Source of the DNA: Desulfomarina profundi
GTDB lineage: Bacteria; Desulfobacterota; Desulfobulbia; Desulfobulbales; Desulfocapsaceae
Reading direction: 5' to 3'
NCBI RefSeq assembly: GCF_019703855.1
Contig: NZ_AP024086.1
Coordinates: 3,492,501 to 3,556,500 of the forward strand
Length of the DNA stretch: 64,000 nt
Of the stretch, positions 5,648 through 58,121 are shown piece after piece. The notes beneath the pieces were generated by a model, which ran no database searches, was not told the DNA's origin, and worked only from the letters and a program-made list of their open reading frames with translations. The translations under genes were made by a program, and so were the position numbers. The number at the start of each line of letters is the position of its first letter. Within the stretch, counting starts at the first letter, position 1.

Positions 5648-5759
5648 TCCTCACTCCTCACCCCTCACTCCTCACTCCTCACTCCTCACTCCTCACTCCT
5701 CACTCCTCACTCCTCACTCCTCACTCCTCACTCCTCACTCCTCACTCCTCACTCCTCAC
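5648..5759. repeat. Tandem heptamer repeat (TCACTCC, about 15 copies)
   Basis: About 108 bases of head-to-tail 7-mers, almost all identical; one unit reads TCACCCC. It sits between divergent genes, about 35 bases upstream of the TMEM43-like start and 100 bases upstream of the kinase start. Its purity suggests recent slippage, so copy number may vary between strains. Its position could affect promoter spacing or transcript leaders. Apparent reading frames through it are compositional artefacts. Confidence 0.95.
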
Positions 5760-11224: not shown

Positions 11225-12058
11225 TGATCGCATCTGATTGCCGTGCGAAAATATTTTTCATTATTCTTCTACAGACAATCCTGCTCCTCTCTCTTTCTCT
11301 TCGTGATGGATCCAACAGTATTTGGCAAATCACTGAATGCCATCAACGGTAAAAAAATTCATGACGATGAAATCGGTAACCTGGTCGACACATTCAACAG
11401 AATGCTGCAGGAAATTCAAAACAGGGACAGAAAGCTTGTCGGACAGAATGTACGACTTGAAAAAACAGTAAAAGAAAGAACCCTTCTCCTGCAATTATAG
11501 AACAAGCAACTGGAAAAAGTAAAGACAATGTTGCGACAACTGGTTAATATTGATGGGTTAACCAACCTTGCCAATAGAAGATATTTTGATGTCTGCCTTG
11601 AAAATGAAATAAAACGAAACAGGAGAACAAACAGGTATTTCTCTCTTATACTCGGCGATATTGATTTTTTTAAGCTCTATAATGACCACTTCGGGCATCT
11701 CAAGGGAGATGAATGCCTCAAGGTCGTGGCCGGTGTCATTAAAAATAAAAGTGGCCGCCCGGGAGACCTGCCGGCAAGATATGGAGGTGAGGAGTTTGCT
11801 GTGATCCTCCCTGATACTGATATCATCGGTTCAAAAAATGTTGCGGAATCAATTCGTCTTAGAGTTCAGGGACTCAAACTTCCTCATCCTGCCTCACCGA
11901 CTGCTGATACGGTTTCAATTTCCCTGGGAGTGGCCAGTTTTCCCCCCGCTGATACTACAGCTTTTACAGGAAAAGACATCATTCTCCGTGCCGACAAGGC
12001 CCTTTACAAAGCAAAAAGTCTCGGCCGAAACCGAATAGTTCATTTTTTCGATTATTAG
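11224..12058 (+). pseudogene. Decayed membrane diguanylate cyclase (GGDEF)
   Basis: The first codons encode a membrane helix (KIFFIILLQTILLLSLSL), but the frame is then lost and the periplasmic sensor part is absent. A HAMP-like piece (DDEIGNLVDTFNRML) and coiled coil follow, ending in TAG at 11498-11500. In the same frame the sequence resumes with a full GGDEF domain: DGLTNLANRR, GDIDFFKLYNDHFGH, inhibitory-site RPGD and active-site RYGGEEF. The domain from ATG 11528 is complete and might be made as a 176-residue protein, but it lacks a ribosome site. Unlike the window's homopolymer frameshifts, the TAG and the deletion are real lesions. Confidence 0.75.
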
Positions 12059-12093
12059 CCCGGATTTCTCATGAACATTGTTTCAATTTTGAG
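12059..12093 (+). repeat. Partial copy of dispersed intergenic element (left end)
   Basis: Begins directly after the GGDEF stop and matches the left end of the element at 22398-22624 for about 35 bases: CCCGGATTTCTCATGAAC, then ATTG, two differing bases and TCAATTTTGAG. The rest of the element is missing. A short perfect hairpin (AGGATTG, CAATCCT) follows before the riboswitch promoter. Confidence 0.75.
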
Positions 12094-12123
12094 AATTGCA
12101 GGATTGAGGTATCAACAATCCTC

Positions 12124-12152
12124 TTGACATTTTTTCCATCCTCCTGTCTATA
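12124..12152 (+). promoter_or_regulatory. Candidate sigma-70 promoter for the btuB-like operon
   Basis: An exact -35 box TTGACA (12124-12129) lies 17 bases before TCTATA (12147-12152), or 19 before TATATT (12149-12154). The predicted transcription start, near 12160, falls just before the riboswitch, which supports it. Confidence 0.6.
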
Positions 12153-12165
12153 TTTACTGAAGTTT

Positions 12166-12330
12166 TTCAGGTGCTCACACGAGCTTGAAAGGGAACCCTG
12201 TGAAAATCGGGGACGGGCCCGCCGCTGTAACCGGGGATGAACGTTGCTTTATGTCACTGTTTGCCACAGGCAGATGGGAAGGCGCAACAAGTAGGATGAA
12301 CCGGAAGTCAGAAGACCTGCCTGGAAAAAA
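12166..12330 (+). ncRNA. Cobalamin riboswitch upstream of btuB-like receptor
   Basis: Conserved blocks of the family appear in order: an opening stem strand near 12168, GGGAACCCTGTGAAAATCGG, a run ending GCCGCTGTAACC, then GGAAGGCGCAACAAGTAGGA, and finally AAGTCAGAAGACCTGCCTG, whose end pairs back with the opening strand. It should repress the downstream receptor and binding-protein genes when cobalamin is plentiful. The 170 bases to the start codon could hold the expression platform; I did not resolve its mechanism. Confidence 0.95.
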
Positions 12331-12501
12331 GAAATCCATCATTATACCGGGATTTCTGACGGTTGTCTCCGTGGACAAGGGACTGCTGTGCAATTCGTGG
12401 AAAACCAGGGCATCCTCGGATCAATGTTTATTGGTCCGGGGATTTTTTTTGCCCGTGCAGGGCATCTCCGGACTGAAAATATCAGAAAAGGAGATAAGAT
12501 C

Positions 12502-22257: not shown

Positions 22258-22657
22258 CTTTAAGCCTCCACAACTTACCTCTGCCGTTCCTGTTCCATTC
22301 GGAAAACAGTACGGAACCTGGCGAAACAAGGACATTATTCAAAAAAACCTCTTTCTGAATTATCCATATTTTCAAAACCATTGTCAAATGGCAGCACTTA
22401 TCCCGCATTTCTCATGAACATTGAGTCAATTTTGAGATTAGCTGTAGAATACAAATAATTAGCCAACTATCAGTAGTCGAACAAAATTGACACAATGTTC
22501 ACCCAAGGTCAGCCTAGGCGACGCCATCTTCTGCAATATTTCAACAGTAAATATAGGCCACTATTATTTACTCTTGAAAATTTTGTAGCTGACGCCGCCT
22601 GAACTGATGAAAAATGCGGGTTATCGGTTCCAATGAACAGGCAGAAAAGGAAGAGAC
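22258..22657. other. Intergenic region holding a dispersed element
   Basis: Separates the binding-protein operon, transcribed leftward from 22257, from the end of the dioxygenase gene at 22658. The promoter of the operon should lie in 22258-22397. The remainder is the structured element described separately. No gene is seen. Confidence 0.6.
22398..22624. repeat. MITE-like structured element, family 1 (outer inverted repeat plus two hairpins)
   Basis: The outer arms are CCCGCATTTCTCAT (22402-22415) and ATGAAAAATGCGGG (22607-22620), with one mismatch. Inside, TGAACATTGAGTCAATTTTG (22415-22434) pairs with 22482-22501 at 19 of 20 positions. A longer imperfect stem joins 22510-22553 with 22564-22605. 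The result can fold as a three-way junction in DNA or RNA. No transposase is present. Left-end fragments recur at 12059, 23683 and 57805, so it is a dispersed family. Confidence 0.8.
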
Positions 22658-23491: not shown

Positions 23492-23682
23492 TGTTTCCTC
23501 CATTTCATATCAAGAATGTATTTAAATAACCTTATAAAACAGCACATTTCAAATTTGCCAGAGTTTCATTGGTAATCAGAGAAAAATGACCCATGCCGGA
23601 GGTAAAGCATCTTTTCCATGGCACAGCGTGGCGGTACAGCAATGGTAATCATTTACCAACCAACAGCAACTCATTATAAATT

Positions 23683-23703
23683 TATCCCACATTTCTCATG
23701 AAC
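23683..23703 (+). repeat. Fragment of family 1 dispersed element
   Basis: TATCCCACATTTCTCATGAA and the next base match the left end of the element at 22398 except for one base; similarity stops soon after. No right end was found nearby. Confidence 0.65.
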
Positions 23704-33085: not shown

Positions 33086-33114
33086 TTGATTTCCTGCAAA
33101 AAGAGAGGTATAAA
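33086..33114 (+). promoter_or_regulatory. Candidate sigma-70 promoter of the cobamide operon
   Basis: TTGATT (33086-33091) and TATAAA (33109-33114) are separated by 17 bases. The predicted transcription start near 33121 coincides with the beginning of the riboswitch. Confidence 0.65.
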
Positions 33115-33116
33115 AA

Positions 33117-33345
33117 CCGGTGCAGGTGTCGAATAAAAGGAAAGACGGTGTGAGTCCGTCACAAGCCAGTCCTTGCTGTATTCGAAGTCTGTACCGACTG
33201 TATCATTTCAACAGTTCTCTGAAGGGTGGCTTGAAATGATATCATATTCTGAATTCAAGGATAAGTCACTGGAGAATATCTCCGGGAAGGCGGTCGGCTG
33301 CAGGAAAATTCGTAAGTCAGAAAGCCTGCCTGCGCCCGTGGAGGC
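33117..33345 (+). ncRNA. Cobalamin riboswitch upstream of TrpD-like/ADH-CobT operon
   Basis: The order of blocks matches the cobalamin class: opening strand GGTGCAGGTG, GGAAAGACGGTGTGAGTCCG, CAGTCCTTGCTGT, a long variable arm, CGGGAAGGCGG, and AAGTCAGAAAGCCTGCCTGC closing on the opening strand. It is more divergent than the copy at 12166, and the central arm is long. It should make the operon cobalamin-repressible, which ties the three downstream genes to cobamide metabolism. Confidence 0.88.
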
Positions 33346-33522
33346 TGTTTCGCTCCATGTTCAGAGTAAACCACTGGAGTTCTCTGTATTCGGAAAAGTT
33401 TTTTGTATTGTCCTTCCAACAGGATAATGCCCACCGCCGGATACGGAGCCCTGATTCCCGATTTTTTCCAGTATTTCTCCCGTATCCCGCATTATTCATT
33501 CTTTGCAGGAGTAATTTATACT

Positions 33523-57780: not shown

Positions 57781-58121
57781 CTCTCCATTACTCCCCTCAA
57801 TCCCTATCCCGCATTTCTCATGAGCACTGTGGATTAATTGTGCAATTCAGTCAAAATAACTGCCGACAACATTCAAATAAATAAAAATAACTGGAAAATC
57901 ATAGCTACAGGCAACTAAACTGCATATCTGGCACATTTTGCCCACAGCAGAGTTTCGTTTTTATCAGAATTACAAAAAGATAACTTTCACTGAATCATTT
58001 CCATCGTCCACATATAGAGGTTGATTTAATAATGACTTTGTGCTTACTTACCATAGAAAATTTATCGAAACACAATTTTTTTACCTATATAATTCAATGG
58101 TTTTTCACTGCGGAGGGAAAA
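57781..58121. other. Divergent intergenic region
   Basis: About 340 bases between the leftward RNA-related operon and rightward nfnA. It contains a family 1 repeat fragment (57805-57823) close to the leftward start and AT-rich sequence before nfnA. No gene is seen. Confidence 0.5.
57805..57823 (+). repeat. Fragment of family 1 dispersed element
   Basis: TATCCCGCATTTCTCATGA is identical to the left end of the element at 22398. Similarity then falls off (GCACTGTGG). It lies 25 bases upstream of the Trm5-like start. Confidence 0.7.

Follow-up and report, generated by a model that had tools for sequence, protein, structure and literature searches.

An intergenic MITE of Desulfomarina profundi with IS1380-type ends and a probable strand-specific folded domain

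Introduction

MITEs are commonly regarded as decayed leftovers with interiors that are free to change. Other systems, such as the ends of IS200/IS605, REP elements and HEARO/omega RNA, also link a mobile element to a single strand that folds in a strand-specific way, and none of these, to our knowledge, has terminal inverted repeats with target duplications. IS1380 transposases are of the DDE type, and the elements of this family have terminal repeats and make target duplications; they differ in this from the single-strand IS200/IS605 family. For small multicopy repeats, passages of PMC10969869 report the cleavage of Correia-containing transcripts by RNase III and an RNase E site in ERIC. In the table of the 104 candidate RNAs of Weinberg et al. 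2010 (PMC2864571), the motif Desulfotalea-1 is entered as an ambiguous RNA, probably not cis-regulatory, and carries no Rfam number.

The element described here lies in a window of 64,000 nucleotides (the whole stretch of DNA that was analysed), which corresponds to positions 3492501-3556500 of the 4.31-Mb single-contig genome of D. profundi. A sequence-only reading of this window had suggested either a non-autonomous mobile element or a structured RNA/DNA family; both descriptions agree with the evidence. The overall reading, to which a probability of about 0.7 is given, is that of a MITE with IS1380-type ends carrying a conserved, strand-specific folded domain.

Identity, boundaries and copies of the element

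The 227 bases that had been singled out consist of exactly 4 + 219 + 4 bases, that is, a 219-bp element between two copies of the duplication TTAT. The features of this copy are as follows:

22398..22401, no strand: left target-site duplication TTAT, the same 4-mer as at 22621-22624
22621..22624, no strand: right target-site duplication TTAT, the same 4-mer as on the left side
22402..22620, minus strand (probable constraint on P3/P4): element core, 219 bp, with ends common to the copies
22402..22415, plus strand: left terminal inverted repeat CCCGCATTTCTCAT (P1), identical at 13/14 bases to the own-genome IS1380-family ends
22607..22620, minus strand: right terminal inverted repeat (P1), assigned by the end motif and the ends common to the copies
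22416..22500, no strand: left hairpin P2, stem GAACATTGAGT/ACACAATGTTC, with an AT-rich variable interior and no minus-strand bias
22501..22509, minus strand: mini hairpin P3, ACC-nnn-GGT, at the centre of the element (AC 20 vs GT 2 on the plus strand)
22510..22606, minus strand: right hairpin P4, conserved, covarying and strand-asymmetric
22553..22564, minus strand: apex of P4, AUAG-UNNN-CUAU on the minus strand, with the loop UGGC in this copy and the pattern present across arms

The terminal repeats (CCCGnATTTCTCAT, 13-14 bp) enclose no transposase gene, and the short length, terminal inverted repeats and multicopy occurrence are those of a MITE. A genome search with the full element, which had been proposed as a check, revealed many further full copies that share sharp boundaries with 4-bp target-site duplications. 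Approximately 40 related copies are present in the D. profundi genome. The sequence search returned 182 candidates, and among the best 40 scored, 24 covered essentially the full length with 91-100% identity. A right-arm model (R1, 120 positions) had at least 39 matches at E <= 0.001, and the end motif was found 136 times with up to three mismatches, compared with 0 for the reversed control. After the removal of spurious end pairings, 41 own-genome elements had both ends; a perfect 4-bp NTAN duplication was observed in 34 and the exact length of 219 bp in 28 of them, with TTAG (9), CTAA (8) and TTAA (5) among the duplication sequences. Element lengths cluster at 218-221 bp, and three further own-genome copies (L028, L029 and L039) had no recognisable end.

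Across all genomes, the duplication was perfect in 48 of the 85 copies with an end match of at least 11/14 and a length of 205-262, and in 53 of all 138 copies, many of which are decayed. The end search rewards the duplication and intact copies were themselves defined with it (at least 3/4 bases), so the corresponding figure of 48/67 is not an independent one. At the single insertion site tested for an empty counterpart (that of L023), three of six congeners (G002, G003 and G006) were contiguous without the element, and the other three gave no match. No examined copy was located inside a predicted gene (39 copies in the own genome; 51, 36 and 16 elsewhere). Because it is multicopy, is flanked by NTAN duplications, has an empty site and has no examined copy inside a predicted gene, the element is a MITE.

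Three left-end pieces, which had been reported at 12059, 23683 and 57805, do exist in the window:

12055..12099, plus strand: solo left end, decayed remnant (TTAG + 41 bp), 87% alike over 45 bp
23682..23703, plus strand: solo left end, about 22 bp shared with the element
57804..57825, plus strand: solo left end, 64% alike over 45 bp

The left-end pattern has four matches in the window including the element itself, against 0.01 expected, and an NTAN tetramer precedes each of the three pieces. Their description as always intergenic has to be amended for the piece at 12055, which touches a gene: its TTAG holds the stop codon of the ORF at 11528-12058. When a TAA or TAG stop codon serves as target, the gene keeps a stop codon through the duplication; L023 and this remnant are examples.

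Other features were also observed in the window, including two cobalamin riboswitches (12152-12338 and 33107-33347), the former of which starts about 50 bp past the solo left end at 12055-12099, and a tandem array of the 7-mer TCCTCAC at about 5648-5759.

Distribution across genomes

Hits of R1 were detected in 25 of 93 genomes of the family Desulfocapsaceae at 0.001 and, for the order Desulfobulbales, in 40 of 257 genomes at 0.0001 (order and class coincide among these 257 genomes and were counted once). In a phylum sample of 297 genomes, two were positive, namely the own genome and G386, which belongs to another class. When that second class was sampled, 52 of 291 genomes had hits. Its terminal repeats vary (ACCTGAATTTTGCA, CCCTAACGTTGCA, CCTAAATTGAGCG, and also CCCGGATATTTCA and CCCGCATTTCTCAT), with the geometry mostly kept, and 5-bp duplications were found in the five G386 copies tested. 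Recognisable repeats were present in 22 of the 24 second-class loci examined, and in 18 of these 22 the right end fell within 3 bp of the model end. Thus, P4 occupies a nearly constant position beside the right end of the element in both classes, usually 14 bp away. From 110 and 74 model matches, solely those of the right arm were used (99 and 39, respectively). A search of plasmids for the element gave nothing, a search of viral contigs gave nothing beyond one exact 25-mer, and a pattern scan of wider genome contigs gave two stretches, both from one Desulfocapsaceae MAG.

Several copies are themselves interrupted or altered. A second MITE-like repeat of 164-168 bp, with ends GATGGACTCGTAAAAA..., is nested in P4 of L025 (1671-1838), L028 and L037, the insertion point in L025 and L028 being different from that in L037, and also occurs at G000:C1:268615-268782. 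This repeat had at least 40 own-genome matches at 98% or more among the best 40 of 69 candidates, and it has TCTACTGCGT...CCTTGTATAT in common with the G386 elements. A 17-bp insert (CCAGGTAAGCGAAGACT and variants) is present in one side of P4 in L034, L035, L036, L040 and L043, and a sequence similar to it, inverted, lies within the apical loop of L067. The 249-bp element at L026:2397-2645, whose middle is replaced by unrelated sequence, has no matching duplication; this chimeric copy (L026_249) was excluded from alignments A1 and A2.

Fold and compensatory changes

The outer arms (22402-22415/22607-22620), the 20-base stem that lies within 22416-22500 and has a single mismatch, and the long imperfect stem (22510-22606) are all present as the sequence-only reading had described them. 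As for the three-way junction proposed there, its big stems stand, and the minimum-energy fold is instead four-way owing to an extra 3-bp hairpin at 22501-22509, so that P1, P2, P3 and P4 are predicted to meet in one junction. The plus-strand centroid leaves this ACC/GGT hairpin open. Folding energies of the 219-nt core were -77.4 kcal/mol for the plus strand (z -9.0) and -88.6 kcal/mol for the minus strand (z -9.2), and on each strand 0 of 200 shuffles were as good.

Alignment of the copies, a second check that had been suggested, revealed strong compensatory changes in the stems. In 22 representatives of the whole element, both-side changes occurred in 27 of 65 pairs, where shuffles predict 11.3, and 90.9% of cells were paired, compared with at most 40.5% with slid partners. 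The pattern is also found in P4, for which 31 copies of less than 85% identity from both classes were compared; of the three G386 rows that entered the selection of these representatives, one was kept. Both-side changes were found in 33 of 37 pairs, and 91.3% of cells were paired versus 65.1% after shuffling. A total of 312 cells had changed on both sides, versus 94.6 in shuffled alignments and at most 72 with slid partners; the structure was predicted from the same 31-copy alignment, which makes the slid control flattering, and the double-change cells are still far above every control. Compensatory change of the kind expected of structured RNA is therefore present beyond both shuffled and slid controls.

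At the apex of P4, the minus-strand pattern AUAG-N4-CUAU was found in 93 of 157 arms when one mismatch was allowed, and was missing in the other 64. The loop fits UNRN in 75 of the 93 arms carrying the pattern; UNR is the U-turn signature of anticodon and antisense-RNA loops. An internal loop, CAAGGC / AACGCAGnAGAUG, was seen in the sequences of many second-class P4 arms.

Which strand is constrained

If G-U pairs are tolerated on the strand that acts, an excess of A-C mismatches on the opposite strand reveals the acting one. In 60 rows read on the plus strand, A-C and G-T combinations numbered 174 and 49 in P4 and 20 and 2 in P3, compared with 14 and 27 in P2 and 21 and 27 in P1. In these counts, L033 was included as structure reference although its duplication is imperfect, and L059 and L088 are the same place, counted twice both here and in the energy set of 67 copies. 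Strand-specific wobble tolerance was thus found in P3 and P4 and was absent from P1 and P2, which resemble plain DNA palindromes that are part of the ends. In the 31 divergent arms, the minus strand of P4 contained 127 G-U wobbles versus 30 A-C mismatches. Individual pairs showed the same tendency on the plus strand, such as 120/194 (AC 31, GC 22, AT 3), 123/191 (CA 31, GC 20) and 113/201 (CA 39, CG 16), all of which become canonical or wobble pairs on the minus strand. A plus-strand RNA was also considered and was dropped, as the conserved "mismatches" of P4 are G-U pairs of the minus strand.

Larger counts of the right arm, from which the G386 rows were excluded, made it possible to compare copies in different states of preservation. 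Among all 131 distinct arms, 392 A-C and 189 G-T combinations were found on the plus strand, of which the 65 intact-ended copies account for 202 and 57 and the remaining 66 copies, where some raw-cell bias remains, for 190 and 132. When changes from Watson-Crick pairs were counted on a tree, those to A-C outnumbered those to G-T by 85 to 30 in the intact copies (26 vs 6 pairs, P = 0.0005), compared with 119 to 97 in the remaining copies (19 vs 16 pairs), and the strand bias differed between the two sets (P = 0.0009). Starting from G-C pairs alone, the ratio of A-C to G-T changes was 58 to 16; starting from A-T pairs alone it was a weak 23 to 13. As mutational controls, the unpaired interior of P2 had no strand bias (G>A 0.0626, C>T 0.0621), and unpaired P4 sites had a mild excess of G>A (0.051 vs 0.035). 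Because of the weak A-T path and this mild excess, part of the P4 strand bias may be mutational.

Folding energies were also compared between the strands. The alifold consensus energy of the same 31 arms was -47.8 kcal/mol on the minus strand and -16.7 on the plus strand (about 0 after column shuffling), and RNA energies were lower for the minus strand in 66 of 67 intact copies, by 17.5 kcal/mol on average. The energy gap is partly due to base composition (a shuffled window copy differs by 8.7) and is hence no sole proof; in the 31 arms, it was 10.3, versus 4.0 after shuffling.

Taken as an evolutionary pattern, these data argue that P3 and P4 are probably under selection as a single-stranded structure of the minus strand. 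The wobble tolerance suggests, with somewhat less assurance, that the P4 single strand is RNA; a similar but weaker signal could come from single-stranded DNA that folds.

IS1380-family elements and mobilisation

Three IS1380-family transposase loci, one of them truncated, were identified in the own genome, plus a 49-aa fragment below the cut-off. The transposase passes Pfam DDE_Tnp_1_4 and NCBIfam transpos_IS1380, and its second half alone falls below the NCBIfam cut-off. Two complete elements of 1711 bp have the ends CCCGGATTTCTCAT and the duplications CTAA and CTAG. The search for a transposase with matching ends, which had been recommended, was therefore successful: 13/14 end bases are identical between the MITE and the own-genome IS1380-family element, and the NTAN target and the 4-bp duplication are the same. 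In G014, the end form ATATTTCA is common to IS and MITEs, so the end match follows lineage. The element very probably has IS1380-type ends. We infer mobilisation in trans, in which an IS1380-family transposase would cut at the terminal repeats and insert the element at NTAN.

A transposase of this family is not present wherever the element is. Matches at 1e-10 were found in 13 of the 40 element-positive genomes, many of which are incomplete assemblies, versus 41 of the 217 others (P = 0.06); the single-contig genome G019 has 26 element hits yet no IS1380 match. IS1380 as a universal helper was rejected, as this overlap is too weak. In a blastn comparison with five IS copies (E <= 1, word 7), the interior of the element had no match, and IS1380 elements have end hairpins that differ from those of the MITE.

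Two features of the IS1380-family elements were noted in passing. The own-genome transposase loci (L031, L051 and L055-L056) each consist of two overlapping frames, and the break falls at the same place in all three, a run of eight A, so that programmed -1 frameshifting is possible. In six of seven folded IS1380 elements (L031, L233, L210, L211, L212 and L230; absent in L222), a hairpin follows the upstream terminal repeat and closes just ahead of the transposase start, and perhaps blocks read-through translation.

Possible role of P4 and alternative explanations

The folded minus strand, most likely as RNA, might act in cis for its own copy and help that copy to be mobilised or tolerated. Nascent RNA might recruit the transposase, the right end might present a folded single strand, or neighbours might be shielded. 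Such a cis role in transposition or tolerance is put forward tentatively, because copies that keep their ends and duplications have a strong strand bias and the other copies a weak one, and conservation in every mobile copy would be needless for an RNA acting purely in trans. A more specific version appears unlikely, namely that a non-autonomous copy makes or exposes the minus strand of P4 beside its right end as a cis RNA or single-stranded DNA component of IS1380-type DDE transposition, conserved in two classes of Thermodesulfobacteriota. P4 is not strictly required, because three elements of 112-113 bp without it, one in G000 and two in G008, carry target duplications:

L042:259-371: terminal repeats and one hairpin, perfect 4-bp duplication
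L077:1504-1615: terminal repeats and one hairpin, perfect 4-bp duplication
L083:668-779: terminal repeats and one hairpin, perfect 4-bp duplication

A function embedded in mRNA was examined as well and was abandoned, since orientation relative to flanking genes is inconsistent between genomes. With genes called by codon usage, 29 neighbours of the 39 own-genome copies point at the element and 37 away; in other genomes, 53 point toward and 27 away from 51 intact copies, and 37 toward and 22 away from 36 other copies.

Several other explanations of P4 were considered. It is somewhat doubtful that the hairpin reflects single-stranded DNA folding during replication, with the transposase or a host protein recognising it by the right end. 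This would account for the near-fixed place of P4 (18 of 22 second-class loci within 3 bp, lengths clustered at 218-221 bp), for its apparent action per copy, and for DNA energies, which also favour the minus strand in 65 of the 67 intact copies. On the other hand, G-T wobbles stabilise DNA less than G-U wobbles stabilise RNA, and the G-U to A-C ratio of 127:30 fits RNA better. The IS1380 family is also unlike the single-strand IS200/IS605 family, and orientation has no clear relation to the GC skew of the flanks (+0.004 vs -0.013; 12 and 16 copies).

It seems improbable that the MITE ends spread P4 as a cargo, an independent non-coding RNA that would act in trans to the benefit of the host or of itself. 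The occurrence of the same hairpin behind differing terminal repeats and duplication lengths, as well as the 112-113-bp elements that lack it, would agree with such a cargo, whereas its usual position 14 bp inside the right end, which in 18 of 22 second-class loci was within 3 bp of the model end, and the many near-identical copies would not. In addition, none of the Rfam families matches, and no dedicated promoter is evident in the window copy, which has three consensus matches (0.9 expected), none of them in P4.

Considerably less credible is a plain MITE in which mutation rather than selection maintains the palindromes, through template switching that repairs imperfect ones. Template-switching repair does make paired changes without function, and P1 and P2, which have no minus bias, would suit it. 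However, it predicts erasure of mismatches on both strands, and pairs 113/201, 120/194 and 123/191 stay A-C on the plus strand in about half of the copies or more; the tree-counted bias also nearly vanishes in copies that are not intact. Least credible of all is a purely double-stranded function, as a palindrome to which a dimeric protein binds or as a cruciform, which fits P1 and P2 but predicts equal strands for P3 and P4, where the strands are unequal, and a P4 stem whose sequence changes freely while its pairing stays speaks against it.

Comparison with known systems

In Rfam 15, no family reached its gathering threshold at any element from 13 and then 18 sources, and further Rfam comparisons gave merely sub-threshold miRNA, snoRNA and lncRNA matches. 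No description of the element was found among the open-licence papers listed for MITEs, IS1380, structured or multicopy RNA motifs, and Desulfobacterota or Deltaproteobacteria. The open-licence literature found to combine MITEs with structured-RNA covariation concerns plant retrozymes, and parts of two open-licence papers on IS1380 and MITEs describe no IS1380 MITE.

In the present element, the terminal repeats have changed in two classes while a hairpin of the interior has persisted, and the RNA-like, strand-specific constraint on this hairpin is strong in intact copies and weak elsewhere. This raises the testable question of whether a folded RNA or a single DNA strand is used by a DDE transposition system, and provides a worked case for repeats, in which a functional RNA is easily mistaken for a plain DNA palindrome and vice versa.

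Like P4, the folded single strands of IS200/IS605, REP elements and HEARO/omega RNA are linked to mobile elements; unlike the present element, which has no Rfam match, these systems are not known to have terminal inverted repeats with duplications. IS1380-family insertion sequences share with the MITE their ends (13/14), NTAN target and 4-bp duplication, whereas its interior is no internally deleted copy of the five IS elements compared. Desulfotalea belongs to the Desulfocapsaceae, the family of the element's host, and the Desulfotalea-1 motif (PMC2864571) may be identical with P4. Correia, ERIC and the Coxiella repeat QMITE2, as presented in passages of PMC10969869, are likewise small, multicopy and often intergenic, with transcripts predicted to fold; in those passages, the folds are predictions for single elements, whereas P4 exhibits compensatory, strand-specific evolution in two classes.
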